Shown here: positions 2,291-7,234 of the stretch, piece by piece
How positions within the stretch are numbered: the first letter of the stretch is position 1
How the letters are laid out: each line of letters begins with the position of its first letter
IMG/VR virus record: IMGVR_UViG_3300043313_000586
Span: 1 to 54,547 of that record
Reading direction: 5' to 3' (one strand)
Source of the DNA: a virus
Length of the DNA: 54,547 bases
The notes under the pieces: model-generated
What the model was told of the DNA's origin: nothing
Database searches by the model: none
What the model saw: the letters and a program-made list of their open reading frames with translations, nothing else
Translations under genes and position numbers: made by a program

Positions 2291-3082
2291 GTGCAAGCAG
2301 CACTTATTCCGCCACGTGGACTTGAAAACTATATTCTGCATTCCACCTTTCATCTGGCACTAGCTATCCCGCAGTGCATGAGTAATTATGACTATACCAA
2401 CGCATACTCTGATGCAGCAACTCGTGGTGACTATATCGTAGTTGACAACGGTGCCGCTGATGGTGGATTGGTTAGTAATGAGGAACTCCTAGATGCTGCC
2501 TTTATGCTTGCGGCTAAGGAGATTGTAGCTCCTGATGTGTTCTACGACAAAGCAGCCACAATTGTTAAGGTGAAGGAGTTCCTTCGTAAGTTCCAACTAC
2601 CCTTGGTTCCATATAAGATTATGGCAGTAGCTCAGGGTACTAGTCCAGCTTCAATCCGTAGGTGCATAGATGTCTATGCTACTCTTCCAGAGATTGACGT
2701 TGTAGGCTTGCCAAAGCATATGCTGACAACTTTGAACGTTAAAGCAGCTAGGCTGGATATGGCTAAGTGGATTGATGAATGCTTTCCGGGCAGATTTCAA
2801 ATTCACATGCTAGGAACTAATCCTGTTTGGCTCAAGGAGATTGTTTCTGTTGCTAAGTATGCACCGTTCGTGCGCTCTGTTGATTCTGCACTACCCTTCA
2901 ACTATGCTCTTGCATCACAAGACCTTGCAATGACTAAACTCGAGCTGACACGTAACCCTGAATACTTTGATCTTGACTGGTCTGAAACAGCTTCCACTAG
3001 GCACGTCAATAATAACATCAAGACATTCATGGGGTGGGCGAATGCAACCAGCGTCAAGGAAACATCCACTTGCGAACTGTGA
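2291..3082 (+). CDS. dpdA: DpdA-like DNA 7-deazaguanine transglycosylase (TGT superfamily)
   Basis: Phage DpdA proteins are short relatives of tRNA-guanine transglycosylase that exchange guanine in DNA for preQ0 or a derivative. The 263-aa product has landmarks in TGT order: an acidic residue in IVAPDVF (D82), the QG of MAVAQGTS (115-116), DVVGLP, HMLG (172-175), and SVDSALP with D198 in the position of the nucleophilic aspartate. The C-terminal zinc site of tRNA enzymes is missing, as in phage DpdA. It starts at a GTG with AAGGAG 8 nt upstream. The pairing with folE in one operon supports the call. Which base is made cannot be told from this window. Confidence 0.8.
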   Translation: MQAALIPPRGLENYILHSTFHLALAIPQCMSNYDYTNAYSDAATRGDYIVVDNGAADGGLVSNEELLDAAFMLAAKEIVAPDVFYDKAATIVKVKEFLRKFQLPLVPYKIMAVAQGTSPASIRRCIDVYATLPEIDVVGLPKHMLTTLNVKAARLDMAKWIDECFPGRFQIHMLGTNPVWLKEIVSVAKYAPFVRSVDSALPFNYALASQDLAMTKLELTRNPEYFDLDWSETASTRHVNNNIKTFMGWANATSVKETSTCEL

Positions 3083-6000
3083 GGCTTGTCCTCTTTTTGA
3101 GAACAAGAATGCCTTTGTACCTACAGAGTTCGCAGAAGCTCCAAAGCTCGTAGTAGTTGGTGAGGCTCCAGGTTATTATGAGACTGCTCAAGGAAGACCC
3201 TTTATGGGTCCCTCAGGACAGCTACTGAATAAAGTTTTGTCTCATAATGGTTATCGAAGAAGGGATATAACATACACAAATGTTTGCTTATGTCGTCCTG
3301 AAGGTAACGCAACTCCTAGTAAAGCTGCGATTAATGCATGTCGTCCACGTCTCATACATGACATCGTACAATCAGGGAAGGCTGGAGCTGAAGACGTCCT
3401 TGCACTTGGTGGGACGGCGGCTTCGGCACTCATTCCAGATGGTAGGACAATCACACATCTCAGAGTCGGGCCGCCAAAGGAGCCCATCCAATCTCTCAGG
3501 GACTCAGGCATTAAAAGAGTTGTCCCGAGCTGGCATCCTGCATATTGCGTTGACCCTGGAACAAAAATCCTCACGGCAGATCTACGTTGGGTAGAAGCAG
3601 GAAGCCTAGAGATTGGTGAAGAACTTATAGGCTTCGACGAGTACCCTAGCGACGCGTCCTTTGCCCGTAGAAAATTCAAACCTACTAAGGTAACTGGAAA
3701 CGAACGTATACGAGCGTCTGTTTGGGAAGTCGAAACTCCTAAGGGTGTAATTACATGTAGTGGTGATCATTTGTGGCTAGCGCGCAAGCGTAAGAAGTAT
3801 TACACGCCGTATGTATGGATAGCCACTATGCACCTAACAGAAGAGTACGATCTCTTCCACTTCATAGATCCTTGGGTAGTTGATGATACCAGAGAAGGCG
3901 GATACGTAGCGGGCTTCTTGGACGGTGAAGGTTGGGTAACACATCCCAATGGCCTCGGATGGGCTCAAAATGATGGAGACGTAGCAGAACAAGTTTGTAA
4001 ACTTGTTGAAGAGAAAGGCTTTACACTTACTAAGGGATACGTAGGTAATTGTGGACGATATTACATGGGAGGTCCACGTGATTCTATCCGTGCCCTTGGA
4101 ATATTTCGACCTGCAAGATTGCTGCCAAAAGCCAACAAGCTTTGGGAGCGACAATGCTCCACCAAGGCTGTACCAGTAGTACGTGTAGAGCCTTTAGGTG
4201 TTGGTGAAGTTATAGCACTCAACACAACTGAACGTACATATATAGCCGAAGGGTTGTTGTCCCATAATTGCCTTAGAACTGCAGATGCATTCCCAGCGCT
4301 CGTTTCAGATATATCCAAGCTGAAGGATGTGAAGAGGAATGCATGGAGTCCTCCTAGATGGAAATACTTTGACGATCCTGCACAGGCCCGATTGGCAATT
4401 CGGGAACTACGAACGAAATACGATCGCCTTGTCGTTGACATTGAGGTCGGTATTGAAAAAGATCTCTCTTTCGGTCACCCAAATGAATACGATCTCCTCT
4501 GCGTGGGCCTTGCATATAAAGCAGGGTCAGCAGTGGTCATTGGGTCTGGTGCACTTACCGACGCTGATGTACTCAATGATCTTAGGGAGCTTTTACAAAA
4601 CGTCAAGCTCATTGCACACAATGGCAAATTTGATTTGGCAGGACTCTATCCCACTCTTGGACCACTTGAACTCTGGTTCGACACAATGCTTGCAAGTTAC
4701 TGTATCGACGAACGTCCGGGAAACCACGGACTTAAAGTTCTTGCAGTGGAAAAGCTTGGAGCCCCTCAGTACGACCTAGAGATTCGAAAGTATGTTCCTA
4801 AGGGTGGTAACTACGCCAATATTCCAAGAGAGCTACTGTATAAGTATAATGCCTATGACGTAGTTTGTACCTGGGACCTCTACGAGATGTTCGTTCCGCA
4901 ACTCGAGAAACCAGGACGTTGGCCTTATACAGATCGTCCAGCTAAGACACTGCGCGATGTTCATGACTTCCTAGTTAAAGCGTCCAACCAACTAATGTAC
5001 CTTGAACTTAATGGCATTACTATTGACAAAGAATATCAACGTGAACTTGGTATCATCTTCCAGGAACGAATTAGTAAGCATGAAGATGCGCTTAACTACA
5101 TTGTTAACAGTTGCTGGTCAGAAGAAGCTGGAGACTTTGTCTTCCAGGCTAACATACAAACTGACGACCGTGAAATAGTCAAGAGCATTAATCCAAGGTC
5201 ACCTAAGCAGATTAAGGAGTTCCTTGCCTCACAGCACCTCCTCGTTGACTCAACGAACGTCGACACTATCAGCAGAGTCATTGAAGGCCTTCAGGGAGAC
5301 ACTCCCGTCAAACGCTTCTGCACAACTCTCCTTCTTCACCGTAGACAACAAAAGCTCTACTCTACATACGTCGATGGAATTAGGAAGCGTACATATAGGA
5401 GACGTGTTTACACAACTTACCTACTCCATGGATCTACATCAGGACGATTGGCATCTCGTAATCCGAATCTCCAGAACATTGTTCGTGACAAGGACATCAG
5501 AAAGCAATTTAGCGTCAGTAACCCTGAAAACGTACTAATCCAATGTGACTATAAAAATGCCGAGCTTAGAGTTATGGCAACTCTAGCTCAGGATGAATAT
5601 CTAAGACATCTGCTTAGCAATCCAGATCCTAACTATAAGTTCTTCAATGAACTATCCGATCAGTTGTATGGTGTAGACAATTGGGATAAGGAAGACTATA
5701 TTCGAACTAAGGCATTCGTTTACGGTATCGGTTATGGTCGAGAGCCTTATTCAATCGGTCTTGAGTTTGGTATGGATAGCAAAGAAGCTAACAGACTATA
5801 CCACAGCTTTATGGATCTGATACCTGCAACTGCTACTTGGCAAGTAGATACACGAAAGAGGGTGCTTGCAGGTGAAGACCTCGTCACTCCTTTCGGCCGT
5901 AGAAGGCGTTTCTACCTTATTACTGAACAGAACAAAAAAGATGTCCTCAATGAGGCTCTGTCGTACCTGCCGCAGAGTACCTCTTCAGACATCTGCCTTT

Positions 6001-6212
6001 CGGCTGCTATCGATCTGCGAACCATGCTCAGAGGCACTGCGTTCCTGCGTCTTCTGATCCACGACGCTATCGTTGCTGAAACACACAAAGATAAAGCGGA
6101 GCAAGTCATAGCAATGATGCAAGAAGTAATGATGGCTAAGGGTAGCGAGTTTACAGACTACGTACCATTTCCTGTCGACGTATCAGTAGGATCACATTGG
6201 GGCAACCTCTAG
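3042..6212 (+). CDS. polA: uracil-DNA glycosylase / DNA polymerase I fusion, interrupted by an intein
   Basis: The replicative polymerase, fused at its N-terminus to a family 4 uracil-DNA glycosylase as known for phage SPO1. The 1056-aa precursor starts at ATG 3042, within the 3' end of dpdA. The UDG part has four cysteines (C13, C16, C84, C100) spaced as in 4Fe-4S family 4 enzymes, plus GEAPG and SWHPAY. An intein spans residues 169-409. The rest holds a DEDDy 3'-5' exonuclease (DIEVG near 465, HNGKFD near 524, YNAYD near 605) and family A polymerase motifs: TSGRLASRNPNLQNI, DYKNAELR near 835, the RTKAFVYGIGYG helix near 889 and IHDAIVAE near 1006. All catalytic acids are present, so the spliced enzyme should be active. 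Confidence 0.95.
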   Translation: MQPASRKHPLANCEACPLFENKNAFVPTEFAEAPKLVVVGEAPGYYETAQGRPFMGPSGQLLNKVLSHNGYRRRDITYTNVCLCRPEGNATPSKAAINACRPRLIHDIVQSGKAGAEDVLALGGTAASALIPDGRTITHLRVGPPKEPIQSLRDSGIKRVVPSWHPAYCVDPGTKILTADLRWVEAGSLEIGEELIGFDEYPSDASFARRKFKPTKVTGNERIRASVWEVETPKGVITCSGDHLWLARKRKKYYTPYVWIATMHLTEEYDLFHFIDPWVVDDTREGGYVAGFLDGEGWVTHPNGLGWAQNDGDVAEQVCKLVEEKGFTLTKGYVGNCGRYYMGGPRDSIRALGIFRPARLLPKANKLWERQCSTKAVPVVRVEPLGVGEVIALNTTERTYIAEGLLSHNCLRTADAFPALVSDISKLKDVKRNAWSPPRWKYFDDPAQARLAIRELRTKYDRLVVDIEVGIEKDLSFGHPNEYDLLCVGLAYKAGSAVVIGSGALTDADVLNDLRELLQNVKLIAHNGKFDLAGLYPTLGPLELWFDTMLASYCIDERPGNHGLKVLAVEKLGAPQYDLEIRKYVPKGGNYANIPRELLYKYNAYDVVCTWDLYEMFVPQLEKPGRWPYTDRPAKTLRDVHDFLVKASNQLMYLELNGITIDKEYQRELGIIFQERISKHEDALNYIVNSCWSEEAGDFVFQANIQTDDREIVKSINPRSPKQIKEFLASQHLLVDSTNVDTISRVIEGLQGDTPVKRFCTTLLLHRRQQKLYSTYVDGIRKRTYRRRVYTTYLLHGSTSGRLASRNPNLQNIVRDKDIRKQFSVSNPENVLIQCDYKNAELRVMATLAQDEYLRHLLSNPDPNYKFFNELSDQLYGVDNWDKEDYIRTKAFVYGIGYGREPYSIGLEFGMDSKEANRLYHSFMDLIPATATWQVDTRKRVLAGEDLVTPFGRRRRFYLITEQNKKDVLNEALSYLPQSTSSDICLSAAIDLRTMLRGTAFLRLLIHDAIVAETHKDKAEQVIAMMQEVMMAKGSEFTDYVPFPVDVSVGSHWGNL
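3546..4268 (+). other. intein with LAGLIDADG motif, inside the UDG active-site motif
   Basis: A 241-aa protein-splicing element. It begins with Cys1 (CVDPGTKILTADLRW, block A), has a block B of the TxxxH type (GVITCSGDHLW), and ends with a block F/G of YIAEGLLSHN followed by Cys+1. The middle holds YVAGFLDGEGWV, a single LAGLIDADG-type motif. No clear second copy is visible, so the homing endonuclease may be monomeric-type or decaying. Excision joins SWHPAY to CLRTAD, restoring the HPAxxLR motif that family 4/5 glycosylases need. The polymerase part is therefore produced only in frame through the intein. Confidence 0.93.
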
Positions 6213-6723: not shown

Positions 6724-6939
6724 ATGATAAAAATTGAGGTATTCGAAACAGTTCACCGGGAAGATCGAAGAATAAGAGAACATGAGGAGCTCAAGTCAAG
6801 AATAGAGACTGACAACAAACAAGCCGCTGCAGCATTCCTTAGGGCGCTTGCTGAAACTCTTGATCCTAGCCCCAAGAGGCCTGCGATGCGAGGAGGTGTG
6901 ACTACGGATGCCCCGAGGCACGAGAGCGAAGCTGGGTGA
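6724..6939 (+). CDS. hypothetical charged helical protein, 71 aa
   Basis: Starts immediately after the previous stop (TAGATG). The product is highly charged and helical (HREDRRIREHEELKSRIET), followed by an Ala-rich helix and a disordered tail. It overlaps the HNH-like gene by 32 nt. No family is recognised. Confidence 0.5.
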   Translation: MIKIEVFETVHREDRRIREHEELKSRIETDNKQAAAAFLRALAETLDPSPKRPAMRGGVTTDAPRHESEAG

Positions 6940-7234
6940 CATTTGTATAGCTCAGAATGGTTACAGTTACACCCAAACAGAACTTGGACGCAAGCTGACA
7001 CATCATCTCGTTGCCGAAAAGAAGTTGGGAAGACCTCTTAAGGGTAATGAGCGCGTTAGCTTTGCAGATGGTGACAAGACTAATTTTGATCCTAAGAACA
7101 TTATGATCAGTATCAAAGGTGAGAACAGTATCAACAAACGGATCGCCAGGATCAATAGCCAGATTTATGAATTGGAACAAGAACGTTCAGCGCTGCTAGA
7201 GCTGCAAAGAGAAACCAAGCTTAGGAAAGTTTAG
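6908..7234 (+). CDS. HNH-endonuclease-like DNA-binding protein with degenerate active site
   Basis: Residues 25-70 (HHLVAEKKLGRPLKGNERVSFADGDKTNFDPKNI, given here only as its key parts HHLVAEKKLGRPL, DGDKTN and DPKNI) follow the phage HNH homing-nuclease pattern H.LVxxxLGRPLxxxExVHHxDGxxxNxxxxNL. The catalytic VHH is replaced by VSF, so cleavage is unlikely, while the fold and DNA binding may remain. The C-terminal 45 residues form a coiled coil. The ATG at 6908 is preceded by GAGGTGTGACTACGG. It may be a domesticated homing nuclease now acting as a DNA-binding protein. Confidence 0.65.
   Translation: MPRGTRAKLGDICIAQNGYSYTQTELGRKLTHHLVAEKKLGRPLKGNERVSFADGDKTNFDPKNIMISIKGENSINKRIARINSQIYELEQERSALLELQRETKLRKV

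Follow-up and report, generated by a model that had tools for sequence, protein, structure and literature searches.

The DNA studied here (the window: all 54,547 nucleotides of the IMG/VR virus record IMGVR_UViG_3300043313_000586) raises the question of why an intein should sit within the active-site motif of a uracil-DNA glycosylase (UDG) that is fused to a DNA polymerase I (PolA), and whether it serves there as a regulatory switch or merely resides as a selfish element. Our analysis indicates that a class 1, single-LAGLIDADG intein of a compact phage family very probably invaded motif B of the UDG in a UDG-PolA gene, and the insertion resembles a selfish element at a newly recognised site more than an established regulatory switch. 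Motif B is the part of UDG superfamily proteins that provides the pocket histidine and the DNA-probing loop. The open-access literature, the scope of our search, describes UDG-PolA fusions and many phage inteins but no intein in a UDG, so that this site seems to be a previously undescribed one for an element of a familiar kind.

The open reading frame, whose most plausible start is the ATG at 3042 (the mechanical ORF opens at a TTG at 2967), encodes UDG, 3'-5' exonuclease and PolA domains in this order, and the PF03167, PF01612 and PF00476 matches within a single ORF bear out the original prediction of a UDG fused to DNA polymerase I (Table 1). UDG-PolA fusions are known from phages of the PaBG/Lupandier group (PMC7412058); these, along with Brevundimonas phage StAshley and our relatives from uncultivated phages (L001-L133), have the domain order and motif B in common with the window's gene, but their motif B is free of an intein. 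Since this gene provides the sole PF00476 match within the window, its polymerase is likely replicative. Its polymerase motif A (CDYKN) carries no intein. Megablast with the first 25 kb of the window returned no close nucleotide relatives among named phages, and a search of genome contigs for hosts or prophages gave no match to the polymerase or the intein.

Table 1. Features of the UDG-PolA gene and its intein (positions in the window).
Feature	Position	Strand	Details	Basis
UDG-PolA fusion ORF	3042..6212	+	1056 aa precursor, 815 aa if spliced	translation, Pfam, homologues
N-extein, UDG domain up to HPAY	3042..3545	+		PF03167 4.9e-22
Span of four predicted 4Fe-4S cysteine codons	3078..3341	+	C13 (3078-3080), C16 (3087-3089), C84 (3291-3293), C100 (3339-3341)	alignment to 1vk2/1ui0
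Class 1 intein	3546..4268	+	241 aa	sequence, homologues, AF2 model
Block B histidine	3768..3770	+	intein H75	invariant in intein family
Single LAGLIDADG subunit	3867..4163	+	intein residues 108-206	modelling, structure matches
LAGLIDADG motif	about 3903-3938	+	YVAGFLDGEGWV	
Blocks F/G	4209..4268	+	end S-H-N	H240, N241 invariant in 20 family members
C-extein start	4269..4361	+	rest of motif B (CLR) and UDG C-terminus	alignments
3'-5' exonuclease domain	4488..4907	+		PF01612 9.9e-12
Family A polymerase domain	5163..6203	+		PF00476 8.9e-56

The boundaries predicted for the 241-aa intein proved exact to the base: the Cys1 codon occupies 3546-3548 and the final Asn codon 4266-4268, the 723 nt between these limits are an open frame throughout, and the element, residues 169-409 of the precursor between HPAY and CLR, corresponds to a gap of 241 columns in homologues. 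It begins with Cys1, ends with His240-Asn241 and is followed by Cys at +1, as in class 1 inteins, and Cys1, the block B His75, His240 and Asn241 are invariant across 20 members of its family, so the splicing residues, whose absence from homologues was to speak against the original prediction, are retained. Block B conforms to TxxH, with Ser (S72) in the Thr place here and in most of the family, and in block F the window's intein has Arg (TTERTYIAEG) where some relatives have His; both departures count against our explanation of the element. An AlphaFold2 model (pLDDT 94, pTM 0.90) adopts the HINT fold, with the Ssp DnaB intein (1mi8) as the best structural match (Z 19.0, 1.9 A over 131 residues). 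We infer from these sequence features that the intein undergoes protein splicing. The GC content of the intein is 46.5% versus 48.0 and 45.2% for the exteins, giving no signal of foreign composition.

To place the insertion within the UDG, we used the joined extein, which aligns, from its first two cysteines as far as HPxYxLR, to the family 4 UDGs of Thermotoga (TM0511, 1vk2; E 1e-24) and Thermus (1ui0; E 1e-20), showing that the intein does split the active-site motif as had been proposed. The proposal that four cysteines match 4Fe-4S ligands also held, as C13, C16, C84 and C100 align with the cysteines of 1vk2 and 1ui0, and 71-72 of 74 relatives retain them; together with E41, E47, F54, N80 and H165 the conserved set is kept in 69-72 of the 74. 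The two bacterial enzymes and the window's domain share the sequence marks of family 4 (the four Fe-S cysteines, GE(A/G)PGxxE and the motif B signature, here HPAxxLR), but the former are free-standing, with neither polymerase nor intein. TIGR00758 (family 4) is the best-scoring UDG model for the joined extein (107.9 bits, versus 80.4 for UdgX) yet stays under its curated cut-off of 125.3, and we therefore call the domain family-4-like, a fair wording for what the sequence supports. Because motif B is interrupted after the Tyr, the UDG of the unspliced precursor is plausibly inactive.

Intein-free alleles, which the original prediction had proposed to look for in related phages, turned out to be the rule. 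In the alignment of four homologues that are 56-60% identical, one gap of 241 columns separates HPAY from [C/T]LR, and a wider search yielded 80 loci from uncultivated phages, nearly all UDG-PolA fusions. Of these relatives, 74 have long ORFs and none carries an intein at the UDG site (one fragment has two extra residues), and their alignment, like that of the four homologues, shows the precise insertion of a class 1 intein; some of the 74 loci duplicate one contig, so that they represent fewer than 74 independent lineages. At the position following HPAY, 51 of the 74 have a native Cys, 8 a Thr and 4 a Ser, and the splicing nucleophile at +1 therefore most likely predates the arrival of the intein. 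Pattern scans of viral contigs for further occupied UDG sites gave chance matches or none, leaving the window's copy as the only occupied motif B found and homing at this particular site putative.

At other sites, the intein has many relatives. By tblastn, it matches over its full length the terminase-gene inteins of Bixzunavirus (C1) mycobacteriophages (38% identity, E 3e-38, far beyond chance). These inteins (e.g. ET08 gp239) share the compact one-LAGLIDADG layout and the class 1 splicing residues, but differ in residing in a terminase-like gene, in their +1 Ser and in their length of 269 aa, whereas the portal-protein inteins of the Gordonia phages Anamika and Lidong, 31% identical to the window's intein over the full length, have a portal gene as host, +1 Thr and 275 aa. 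In uncultivated phages, the family occupies PolA motif A, the Walker A motif of UvsX, an endolysin, a head-tail adaptor and other sites. In one sibling UDG-PolA (L119), the UDG motif is intact and an intein of the same family (37% identical to the window's) precedes the CDY of polymerase motif A. The intein tree is star-like, with branches too poorly resolved to name either the nearest donor or the direction of transfer. Some phage PolA genes seem to hold several inteins: that at L038:2152-6735 apparently has three before the polymerase domain resumes (one of the window's family, one Hint with NUMOD4/HNH features and one third Hint region), and in the PolA ORF at L011:1592-5467 the family intein at motif A seems to be preceded by a second, unrelated one that starts CMPAGELVLTDRGYLPVEQ and ends THN.

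The terminase genes reveal that such an intein can move. Of the 192 phages carrying the C1 terminase gene, 120 match over 80% or more of the query, while among the matches listed most of the remaining genes cover about 73% of it; the three that we read (Yucca, Sebata and HyRo) are shorter by exactly one intein (807 bases). The inteins of Phusco and Wally are 99.88% identical versus 98.60% for their exteins, and the Wally extein is nearest to that of intein-free Sebata (99.37%), whereas Phusco and Koguma have exteins that are 99.77% identical and inteins that are only 90.46% identical. Because presence and absence vary and the history of the intein disagrees with that of its host gene, the terminase intein has moved between alleles by the sequence record, and a single-motif member of the family is thus mobile. 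Two types of C1 terminase intein, about 90% identical, are swapped between near-identical phages (L014, L134-L139). In a reporter assay of five terminase inteins, Pham3880-g of ScottMcG, a C1 terminase-like intein, underwent splicing but left some precursor, and it was the only one of the five whose precursor could readily be seen (PMC5050341); matched by description, the ET08 gp239 intein is probably the Pham3880-g of Kelley et al. 2016 (PMC5050341).

With respect to the endonuclease, residues 108-206 modelled alone form the helix-strand-strand-helix-strand-strand-helix arrangement, corresponding to one alpha-beta-beta-alpha-beta-beta-alpha subunit of the I-CreI type in the predicted model. 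The closest matches include I-CvuI (Z 9.7, 2.5 A over 89 residues), I-CreI (Z about 9) and part of PI-PfuI (9.5), and WhiA ranks alongside these endonucleases (Z 9.8). Sequence and structural model agree with the original prediction of one clear LAGLIDADG motif: there is one motif in one subunit of about 99 aa, as opposed to the monomer with two motifs (blocks C and E) that is typical of inteins, and the single-motif layout is common to the whole family. In its predicted fold, the window's subunit resembles one half of the homodimeric endonucleases I-CreI and I-CvuI (Z about 9), but these are encoded in group I introns whereas it is embedded in an intein. Cutting as a homodimer would be the obvious mode for such a domain, but recognition of DNA by a homodimer gains no support from the target sequences, because 20 empty family sites were no more palindromic than positions drawn at random from these genes (at best a mean of 3.6 out of 11 matches versus a null median of 3.6).

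Homing plus persistence at a conserved site accounts for all observations on the UDG intein. The Hint domain would excise itself through an N-S acyl shift at Cys1, transfer to the native Cys+1 and cyclisation of Asn241, so that HPAY is ligated to CLR and the UDG loop is made whole again. Probably as a homodimer, the endonuclease would cut intein-free alleles, whose repair would copy the intein in, and selfish homing together with the heavy penalty for inexact loss from a conserved motif would suffice for persistence, making a regulatory role unnecessary.

Could the endonuclease instead be dead, the intein being a decaying homing element that still splices and is vertically kept as a remnant? 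The single LAGLIDADG motif, the one occupied copy of the site and a PF14528 score under its cut-off would fit such decay, but D126 and E128, the acidic residues of the motif, do not vary among 20 members, the whole family has the single-motif layout and a single-motif relative has moved horizontally in recent times, rendering this reading unlikely. We regard it as improbable that the UDG has lost catalysis and serves the polymerase only as a structural part, such that the insertion would matter little for base excision: while the joined domain does score under the TIGR00758 cut-off, the conservation of E41, E47, F54, N80, H165 and the four cysteines across the relatives argues against this reading.

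The original prediction had the insertion control both UDG activity and polymerase maturation, a claim that we found unsupported. Conditional splicing that gates the UDG, and perhaps maturation of the polymerase, would draw on the separation of the motif B His from its Leu-Arg, on the predicted Fe-S site and on the visible precursor of Pham3880-g, alone among its peers (PMC5050341). Yet all 74 relatives manage without an intein at this site, and there is no sign that the exonuclease or polymerase needs splicing, because both domains lie whole after the intein in the precursor; moreover, placement in conserved motifs is usual for inteins in general and for this family. A post-translational switch is thus very unlikely, and it is hardly to be expected that splicing would sense the infection state or redox and turn on the UDG so that uracil excision joins replication late.

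This family of small inteins recurs in the active-site motifs of phage genes for replication, recombination and packaging, and among sibling phages one fusion gene carries members of the family at two distinct active sites. These two sites and more than 70 empty alleles constitute a natural test bed for why inteins choose catalytic motifs, and the same system bears on whether a half-size LAGLIDADG domain within an intein works as a homodimer.

Finally, we inspected the surroundings of the gene. PF00692 (dUTPase) gave no match in window positions 1-54547, despite the UDG domain on the polymerase. The gene at 2291-3082, overlapping the UDG-PolA start, has weak similarity (24%, E 8e-6) to the one immediately preceding UDG-PolA in Brevundimonas phage StAshley, where this counterpart comes after queC/queD/queE-type genes; it is possibly a DpdA/TGT-like DNA-modification gene, and Pfam gave no match for it. 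Genes for GTP cyclohydrolase I and a MazG-like protein lie just upstream (666-1720) and would fit a role in the metabolism of 7-deazaguanine or other nucleotides. A short way past the polymerase, an HNH endonuclease gene (6908-7234) is a possible free-standing homing endonuclease.
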